Below are positions 7,570-9,874 of a stretch of 23,904 bases of DNA, piece after piece. The stretch comes from a virus. Every line of letters starts with the position of its first letter. Position 1 is the first letter of the stretch. The notes below the pieces were generated by a model that saw nothing but the letters and a program-made list of their open reading frames with translations, was not told where the DNA came from and searched no databases. Both the position numbers and the translations under genes were made by a program. Where the stretch lies: the IMG/VR virus record IMGVR_UViG_3300009157_000210, positions 1 to 23,904 of that record; one strand, given 5' to 3'.

Positions 7570-8106
7570 ATGGCAAGTCACTTTTGTAGGTCATGCGGAG
7601 ATAAATTATCTCGCAAAAATGCTTATAAGAATCGCAAAAAAGGACATAGTTATAGGCGAATTTGTAAAGAATGCAACAAAAAGGAAAGTTCTGATACAAG
7701 GCGAAAAAACAACGGGAATTGCCGCCTATTATTGAAGGGAAAATATCGAAAGATTTCAATCACGTTTCTCAATCAAGAAGCCAAAAAACATTTCCTTCTA
7801 TGCCGTCGCCTGCAAGTCATTGGCTGCCATCCCAAAGTTGGTCACGAAAGCAAAGTAGGCCAACGGGTCGAGCATCTGGTAGAGGAACGCACCGAACATG
7901 GCGAGATGCATCGCTACTTCATTGATACCAAATGCGATGAGTGCCAGGGCGAAGTGAAGTTTAATCCGCATGGCTTTAAGCAGTGTATTGAGTGTGGTTT
8001 GTTGTCCGCAAACTTTACCCTAGAAAACGAACTGGATGAGCCGCAAGATCGCGACTTGCCACAAGAAGAATATTACGGTCATGCCAGGCCGGAAGAGGCT
8101 GACTAA
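7570..8106 (+). CDS. Double zinc-site protein, 178 aa, unknown
   Basis: ATG 7570 has GGAG upstream; the longer reading from 7537 is not needed. The N terminus has CRSC (6-9) and CKEC, a zinc site like that of the endonuclease at 2500 but without its nuclease core. The middle is basic. A second zinc ribbon (CDEC, CIEC) lies near the C terminus before an acidic tail (ENELDEPQDRDLPQEEYYG). It is monocistronic, between two copies of the virus promoter motif. A DNA/RNA-binding or transcription-modulating role is inferred only from zinc sites and layout. Confidence 0.65.
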   Translation: MASHFCRSCGDKLSRKNAYKNRKKGHSYRRICKECNKKESSDTRRKNNGNCRLLLKGKYRKISITFLNQEAKKHFLLCRRLQVIGCHPKVGHESKVGQRVEHLVEERTEHGEMHRYFIDTKCDECQGEVKFNPHGFKQCIECGLLSANFTLENELDEPQDRDLPQEEYYGHARPEEAD

Positions 8107-8142
8107 AGCCTCGTGCATAAGTCCTGGCATTCATATTTACCA

Positions 8143-8159
8143 ATAACTATTTAACCGTT
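8143..8159 (+). promoter_or_regulatory. Virus promoter motif, copy 2
   Basis: ATAACTATTTA (8143-8153) plus NNN and GTT (8157-8159), identical in layout to copies at 7503 and 19807. A transcript would start near 8175, exactly where the structured non-coding stretch begins. No gene starts for another about 700 bases, so the immediate product is probably a long leader or a separate RNA. Confidence 0.65.
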
Positions 8160-8416
8160 CATCACCTACTCACATATGCCATTGGCCGCCTTAGGTAAGC
8201 GACAATCACAAATGGCCTCCGCTACCTCGCTGGGGCGGGGCTCTTCTAATTATCTGCGATGAGCCGGGCTACCACGCCCGCCGATGATCGCAATATAAGC
8301 CGCCTGTTATCATGATCCGGGTGTATAGAACGCTTCCTTTTCTTTTACCGGGCAGGCGGTTATCACAGTCATTGCAGCCTGATCCGCTGCCTTGGACCAC
8401 ATCGATGTGTGGCATT

Positions 8417-8460
8417 ATCCTGTTGGCCGAGGGATAAGGGCTACTCAGGATCATCGGCCA
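8417..8460 (+). ncRNA. Interleaved inverted repeats (pseudoknot-like)
   Basis: ATCCTG (8417-8422) pairs with CAGGAT (8446-8451), and TGGCCGA (8424-8430) pairs with TCGGCCA (8454-8460). The two stems interleave, the signature of a pseudoknot. GGGATA (8431-8436), in the loop, can also pair with TATCCC (8491-8496) downstream. Loop 3 is only two bases, tight for a classical H-type knot, so folding needs checking. Confidence 0.35.
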
Positions 8461-8555
8461 TTCTATCACCTTTATTTGCCGCAAAAGACCTATCCCAAAC
8501 GGATGATGCTGCCTATTGACAGATGGGACAAAGTAAGATAGGGCGCGGCTTTCTA

Positions 8556-8623
8556 CGGCGTGTCTAACTGGTCGGACGGGCCGGGAACCCGGAAGAATGC
8601 AAGTTCGAATCTTGCCACGCCGA
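8556..8623 (+). tRNA. tRNA-like element, compact or decayed (GGG anticodon position, Pro?)
   Basis: The 7-base acceptor arms CGGCGTG (8556-8562) and CACGCCG (8616-8622) are fully complementary, followed by A as discriminator base. The T arm is perfect: GCAAG, TTCGAAT loop, CTTGC (8599-8615). A D-arm with loop AACTGGTC is present but merges with the acceptor, with no linker bases. The anticodon stem has four pairs and a 7-base loop CCGGGAA, placing GGG (proline) at the anticodon but with C instead of the near-universal T at position 33. At 68 bases it is short. It may be a non-canonical viral tRNA, a tRNA-mimic, or a decayed copy. Confidence 0.45.
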
Positions 8624-8872
8624 TTATATCCTTTCCTAGTCATCCCTAGATGACATCGATCCATCATGTAAGCCGTCAATTTGGCGAGCCGATGACGGTA
8701 AGGTACGGTACTACGCGGCCCGCCCGGTTAAATTCCGGGCAGGGTCTCCTAATTATAAGCCGACTATTAATTGCCAATCATGCCATTCCCTTACCTATTG
8801 TGAATGAAAATATTAACAGTATATCGTTAGTTTCTGCTTATCGGCAAGCGCCGCTTGTCATAAGGTGATTTT

Positions 8873-9874
8873 ATGGTAAGATGTGAAGAGTTTTATAAGA
8901 AATGGGATTCTTGCGGTAATTTCTGCGAGAAGCACCCAAATACCGCCGCACAGATTGAAGCATATTTAGACCAGATGGATGAAATTGAGGAAATAACAGC
9001 AGATTGCTTACCGGACGTTAAACCTTCCGCGATCGCGGAAATGCGAATTTCTGAAAACGCATGCAGGCCGCTTATTCGTGAGAAAGACCCAGAAGTGCGC
9101 CGGGAAGTTATCAAGCAAATTGTAAAGAAAAGCGAGGAAAAAGCGCAAACCGGGGCACGGCCAACAGTAACCTCTAAAGAGGTTAAGAAGATCCTGGCTG
9201 ATGTCAAACGGCCCGAACCACCGAAGCCAGAACTTACCAAGAATGCTCCAAGATGGGAAGGCAGTTGGTTAATTCTTGGAAAGCATAAGGTCTTTTGTGG
9301 TGATTGCAACTCAGAAGAGTTCAAAGCAGAATGCAAAGGCGCAAAGTTCGCTTTCTCTGATCCTCCCTATAACGCGGGCGTTGCTGAGTGGGATCATGAT
9401 TTTACATGGGCACAAGATTGGCTGGCCGATCTGGCGCCAATCGTTGCAGTCACACCTGGTATAGTTTCAATTCAAGACTTCTTCAAGTCTACCAATATGC
9501 CTTATGCGTGGTCGGTGGCTTGCCTGATCAAAAACGGCATGACTCGCGGCGCGTTGGGCTTCGGAAATTGGATTTACGTTTCACTCTTCAGCAAAGAATC
9601 TCTCTTCAGAACATCCCAGGATTATCTAGAAGTCTCTATAAAGACCTCCGAAACAGAAGACAGCAACCACAAAGGCCGAAAGCCTTTAGACCTTTTGAAG
9701 TGGCTCCTGGAACGCTTCAGTAAGCCCGGTGATGTGGTTATAGATCCTTTCCTTGGATCAGGAACCACCTTAATAGCCTGTGAAAAAATGGGCAGAACGT
9801 GTATAGGTGCTGAAATAAGCCGCGAATACTGCGAAGCGATAGGAACGAGGTGGCTACGTGAGAACACCATTTGA
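8873..9874 (+). CDS. DNA methyltransferase, beta-class N4/N6
   Basis: The 333-aa protein has the catalytic motif SDPPYN at 162-167 and the AdoMet-binding motif DPFLGSGTT at 291-299, in beta-class order, preceded by HKGRKPLDLLKWLL. It would transfer methyl from AdoMet to adenine N6 or cytosine N4 in DNA, for self-marking against host restriction or control of packaging. LGKHKVFCGD at 135-144 is the usual entry strand. The N-terminal about 120 residues carry cysteines (C4, C14, C18) and a helical segment like the C-terminal part of ParB-fused methyltransferases, but no ParB domain. ATG 8873 follows AAGGTGAT. The next gene overlaps it by 17 bases. Confidence 0.88.
   Translation: MVRCEEFYKKWDSCGNFCEKHPNTAAQIEAYLDQMDEIEEITADCLPDVKPSAIAEMRISENACRPLIREKDPEVRREVIKQIVKKSEEKAQTGARPTVTSKEVKKILADVKRPEPPKPELTKNAPRWEGSWLILGKHKVFCGDCNSEEFKAECKGAKFAFSDPPYNAGVAEWDHDFTWAQDWLADLAPIVAVTPGIVSIQDFFKSTNMPYAWSVACLIKNGMTRGALGFGNWIYVSLFSKESLFRTSQDYLEVSIKTSETEDSNHKGRKPLDLLKWLLERFSKPGDVVIDPFLGSGTTLIACEKMGRTCIGAEISREYCEAIGTRWLRENTI

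Follow-up and report, generated by a model that had tools for sequence, protein, structure and literature searches.

A free-standing viral DUF3800-X RNA beside a tRNA-like element: a candidate mimic of a host nuclease's partner RNA

The virus represented by the window, a stretch of 23,904 nucleotides (IMG/VR record IMGVR_UViG_3300009157_000210), encodes a full-length copy of the DUF3800-X RNA (Rfam RF02984) at positions 8477-8550 of the + strand. Host copies of this RNA adjoin a DUF3800 gene or its remains, whereas the viral copy has neither such a gene nor a TATA box of its own, and a tRNA-like element comes directly after it. The explanation that we consider best, with a probability of roughly 0.42, is that the viral DUF3800-X is a mimic of the partner RNA of a host nuclease, released via the tRNA-like element and serving as an antidote or decoy. 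The segment around it is most likely a small viral non-coding RNA unit, a reading that forms part of the mimicry explanation and is covered by the same joint figure.

The RNA and its surroundings in the viral segment

The DUF3800-X RNA lies in a gap between two + strand genes (8107-8872) which, in agreement with the original prediction, contains no credible gene. Its two open reading frames, 8650-8868 (+) and 8269-8679 (-), score -0.09 and -0.05 bits per codon respectively and neither has a Pfam match, compared to 0.10 to 0.35 bits per codon for 19 of the 23 genes of the virus and -0.01 to 0.08 for the weakest four. Downstream of the gap the window encodes a methyltransferase, a TerS-like gene and TerL, in that order. 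The TATA-like promoter motif ATAACTATTTA at 8143-8153 (+) has only three exact copies in the window (7503, 8143 and 19807), all intergenic and on the + strand, and is probably a promoter box common to several virus transcripts. A transcript from the copy at 8143 would be expected to start near 8173-8178.

The match to the covariance model of RF02984 is full-length (model positions 1-73 of 73), includes the same core and three helices, and reaches 49.2 bits with an E-value of 2e-9 against a curated cut-off of 38.2. It is the sole match above the curated cut-off in an Rfam search of the whole window, and was overlooked in the original prediction. Adjacency to a DUF3800 gene, the association behind the family name which lies outside the model, is not a property of the viral copy. 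A newly built DUF3800-X model that includes the viral copy itself scores this copy at 71.8 bits. Across 22 aligned sequences from hosts and viruses, pairing is found in 91% of cells, and 13 of the 19 pairs have changed on both sides as opposed to 7.8 +/- 1.5 in shuffles, with all shuffled and slid controls falling below the real alignment; a covariance analysis of relatives, which had been suggested as a check, thus finds the helices kept by paired changes. The viral outer helix reads GCCGC/GCGGC where the typical host helix is AGTGA/TCACT; four pairs of this helix have changed on both sides, and two further pairs have changed on both sides in the second helix, while the conserved core AAA.GGATGATGC ... 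GATGGGACAAAGTA is retained. Since the closing helix has been rebuilt by paired changes and the core kept, the viral DUF3800-X is a selected RNA, the fold of which is under selection.

Five bases after the DUF3800-X RNA begins the tRNA-like element (8556-8623, +). It passes the Rfam cut-off for tRNA (RF00005, 30.5 bits with a cut-off of 29) as the earlier reading of a tRNA-like element would imply, but no tRNA is called at 8556-8623 by ARAGORN at its default settings. Like tRNAs, the element has an acceptor stem (CGGCGTG/CACGCCG), a perfect T-arm and an anticodon-like stem, with an anticodon-like GGG at 8583-8585; unlike them, it has no proper D-arm and carries C33 in place of U33, and hence it is not a normal tRNA. 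In a comparison with 231 Methanomicrobiales genomes, a set that may not include the true host, no host tRNA of tRNA length matches the element; the matches in these methanogen genomes span about 17-33 nt, and the two that were examined look like coding sequence.

The remainder of the segment consists of a leader (8178-8476, +), with weak hairpins for example at 8254-8296, 8298-8364 and 8371-8461, and a tail (8624-8756, +) with hairpins at 8639-8654 and 8722-8740 that as a set are not above chance. Both the 12-base palindrome CACATCGATGTG at 8398-8409 in the leader and the block repeated near both ends, CTAATTAT at 8246-8253 and again in the tail at 8749-8756, are present as originally described. 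At least eight inverted repeats had also been taken as a sign of structure. Perfect hairpins of at least 6 bp number 3 as opposed to 1.6 +/- 1.2 in shuffles, the folding z-score of 8163-8760 is -0.88, and in sliding 80-nt windows the mean folding z of the segment is -0.41 compared to -0.26 elsewhere in the contig; since neither the number of hairpins nor the folding energy exceeds chance, the inverted repeats are dropped as evidence. The proposal of a viral non-coding RNA is upheld on the strength of paired changes in a named RNA family, and not of the listed repeats. The full segment has one other copy in the collections, which is identical and so allows no paired-change comparison for the remaining hairpins. 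No relative is found among phage records, where three Sinorhizobium phage matches of 25-35 bases (E 0.8) fall on tRNA-Pro sequence. When the parts of the segment outside DUF3800-X are compared with 232 methanogen genomes, the four matches examined (L066, L078, L080 and L081) look like short coding-sequence matches, and with DUF3800-X masked the segment has no similarity above shuffles to the other viral arrays.

Two further hairpins lie at the borders of the gap. One, a strong hairpin (CTTAT-GGCAAGC/GCTTGTC-ATAAG, 8837-8864, +), is located just 5' of the methyltransferase start and overlaps an AAGGTG ribosome-binding stretch; windows from 8860-8880 have a folding z of about -2 to -3 and the one at 8840 of about -1.6, and this hairpin could control translation of the methyltransferase. 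The other is a long hairpin (ATGCCAGG/CCTGGCAT, 8082-8136) that spans the stop codon of the upstream gene, with a folding z of about -3.

As a whole the first reading of the segment holds for the lack of genes, the tRNA-like element and the motif copies and fails for the excess of inverted repeats. The term 'undescribed system' is apt for the free-standing viral form beside tRNA-like elements, of which no description was found in the literature searched, and inapt for the RNA family, which was already known.

Distribution in methanogens and in other viruses

An exact-pattern genome scan finds DUF3800-X in eight archaeal MAGs, five of which are Methanoregula or other Methanomicrobiales, and a search of 232 Methanomicrobiales genomes detects the RNA in 61. 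The patterns also hit sequences of Enterococcus, Akkermansia, Flavobacteriales and Bacteroidales, but these hits have no Rfam match and look like chance. This distribution, together with a TerL that is 58% identical in a methanogen bin and the viral-like locus L120 of a methanogen bin (see below), points to an archaeal host, and judging from these related sequences the window virus is a probable methanogen virus.

At most host loci examined the 3' end of DUF3800-X lies tail-to-tail with the DUF3800 gene or with what is left of it. A TATA-like box usually precedes the host copies by about 27 nt on the same strand, which supports the strand and start of the RNA; the sequence upstream of the viral copy has no such box at about -27. 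Among 53 chromosomal loci, some of which are cut by contig ends, the DUF3800 gene is intact at about 18, broken or truncated at about 11 and undetectable at about 20. RNA scores stay high in loci that lack the gene, and the top-scoring copy of all (L033, 88.3 bits) has no detectable DUF3800 gene. The host gene is predicted to encode an RNase HII-like fold: a protein model from the host set (pLDDT 84.8) has an archaeal RNase HII as its nearest Foldseek match (E 5e-6), and the acidic residues D19, E20, E68, D141, D180 and D191 are invariant. DUF3800 has been described as an RNase H fold tied to CRISPR effectors and non-coding RNAs, its nucleases also being found beside CRISPR effectors (PMC10910872, PMC12669027).

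Beyond the window and a 30.5-kb near-duplicate, three virus contigs carry an orphan DUF3800-X. In L113 a TerS-like gene and TerL follow the RNA at a distance of 19 nt. The interval between TerL and portal in L115 contains two copies, which are surrounded by tRNA-Ser and tRNA-Thr-like genes. In L139/L149 (46.6 kb) the RNA ends a gene-poor run of about 1.6 kb made up of tRNAs and tRNA-like elements, located on the minus strand from about 9132 down to 7503 of L149 (G245:C1:10000-29000), and the methanogen bin contig L120 carries a 91% identical version of this DUF3800-X/tRNA part. tRNA or tRNA-like genes thus lie beside the RNA in two of the three other virus contigs, whereas tRNA genes are near host DUF3800-X at only 4 of 53 loci with no enrichment, and the link with tRNAs therefore looks viral, albeit in a small sample. 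No DUF3800 gene is found in the window record, its near-duplicate or the other three RNA-bearing virus records, all of which are classed as linear and are possibly fragments, such that the gene could be present beyond their ends. Scans of viral contigs with loosened patterns detected no full DUF3800-X in addition to those described.

Several features of these contigs are recorded as observations in their own right. The tRNA-Thr-like gene of L115 (8511-8584, -) has anticodon AGT and C33, which is unexpected for archaeal decoding, and a 6-pyruvoyl tetrahydropterin synthase/QueD-like gene (9067-9447, -) is situated between the two DUF3800-X copies. The run in L149 includes a tRNA-CAT that has C33 and a long variable arm, a Gln-like tRNA apparently interrupted by an intron of 86 nt and several elements bearing T-arms, and its DUF3800-X is fused to a T-arm-like end. 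A virus-collection contig with a ParA-like gene (L140, IMGVR_UViG_3300001567_000002) carries a complete pair of DUF3800 gene and RNA, which suggests that the pair may be mobile. Five marine virus contigs retrieved with the loosened patterns (L188, L187, L179, L186 and L184) were rejected as they carry a variant of the manA RNA of about 200 nt each with covarying helices, which scores below the Rfam cut-off (26 bits, E 5e-5); two of them have a tRNA-Ile(TAT) about 50-90 nt downstream. The manA variant and DUF3800-X have in common GAGTA.GTCC...GGATGAGGC...AAGTAGGG.

Proposed mimicry of a partner RNA and its alternatives

The mimicry explanation envisages that the + strand is transcribed from the TATA-like motif at 8143 and that the tRNA-like element would allow host tRNA-processing enzymes to cut DUF3800-X from a longer precursor. 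The freed viral RNA would then replace the host RNA as the partner bound by the host DUF3800 nuclease and, once bound, neutralise the nuclease as an antidote or decoy. That viruses keep the RNA alone, and that hosts keep it after loss of the nuclease, points to such an antidote-like role, although its persistence in hosts that lack the gene would also suit an RNA that has a function of its own. The position near terminase in three of four viruses counts against mimicry and fits other roles.

For bacteria it is established that viruses mimic host RNA partners with RNAs of their own (PMC3475682, PMC10651486). The pseudo-ToxI RNA of phage PhiTE blocks a host RNA-antitoxin system (PMC3475682) and, like the viral DUF3800-X, is a virus-borne copy of a host RNA whose partner protein the virus does not encode; the mimicry has been tested for pseudo-ToxI and is only inferred for DUF3800-X. 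ToxI furthermore consists of an array of repeats that precedes toxN in the same orientation, whereas DUF3800-X is single and convergent, and the convergent host pair likewise departs from the type III toxin-antitoxin arrangement, in which the RNA lies upstream of the toxin gene and points in its direction. Phages also carry solitary CRISPR-repeat RNAs (Racr, RNA anti-CRISPRs) that block CRISPR-Cas (PMC10651486); they resemble the viral DUF3800-X in being solitary host-like structured RNAs behind a viral promoter with no gene for the partner protein, but Racrs mimic CRISPR repeats and the viral DUF3800-X has no Cas link. A virus that encodes the host RNA and not the protein is what the fragmentary records contain, with DUF3800 as a putative defence protein or toxin.

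A different account, possible but somewhat doubtful, is that DUF3800-X travels in viral tRNA clusters as one of the small structured RNAs that serve the virus's own expression or RNA processing, and acts without DUF3800 protein. Other structured phage RNAs also occur near tRNAs. One of them, the manA RNA (RF01745) of marine phages, is comparable to DUF3800-X as a structured phage RNA beside tRNA genes with variants that carry the GGATGAGGC...AAGTAGGG core, but it is larger, has other helices and occurs in other viruses. The account agrees with the gene-poor run of L139/L149 and its homologue L120, where the RNA merges with a T-arm-like end, with the tRNA genes around both L115 copies and with the scarcity of tRNA genes near the RNA in host chromosomes; it leaves the host tie to DUF3800 genes unexplained. 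The terminase genes that lie near the RNA in three of four independent viruses, including the window, where the methyltransferase intervenes, leave a small weight on a link with packaging, in which the RNA would act together with terminase in a way loosely reminiscent of phi29 pRNA. This is improbable given that L139 and L120 have no terminase beside the RNA, that cellular copies are chromosomal and next to DUF3800 rather than head genes, and that late-gene neighbourhoods often gather extra genes.

The many decayed copies in host genomes would suit a functionless piece of a host DUF3800 element that the virus has captured and that is now decaying. This reading is disfavoured by the paired changes and just as improbable: the outer helix in the window is wholly replaced yet still pairs, the core is retained, and four independent viruses have kept the RNA. 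The least credible reading is a DNA site, despite the gene-free position 5' of the terminase genes, the palindrome and the tRNA-like 3' half. The suggestion that the segment is a replication origin, pac or cos site finds no specific signal, as the segment shows neither a GC-skew turn, the check proposed for it, nor tandem or iterated repeats; an attachment site was rejected as the element has no tRNA-length host match in the 231 Methanomicrobiales genomes, outside which the true host may lie. None of these three readings is thus supported.

Mimicry of a host partner RNA remains the best explanation. A broader and more tentative proposition, itself rather unlikely as it stands, is that DUF3800 and its RNA form an RNase H-like toxin or defence module of methanogens, which archaeal viruses would switch off with free RNA copies derived from tRNA-like precursors. 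DUF3800-associated RNAs are conserved families and, if the mimicry explanation is true, the viral DUF3800-X would constitute an RNA-based counter-measure in an archaeal virus.
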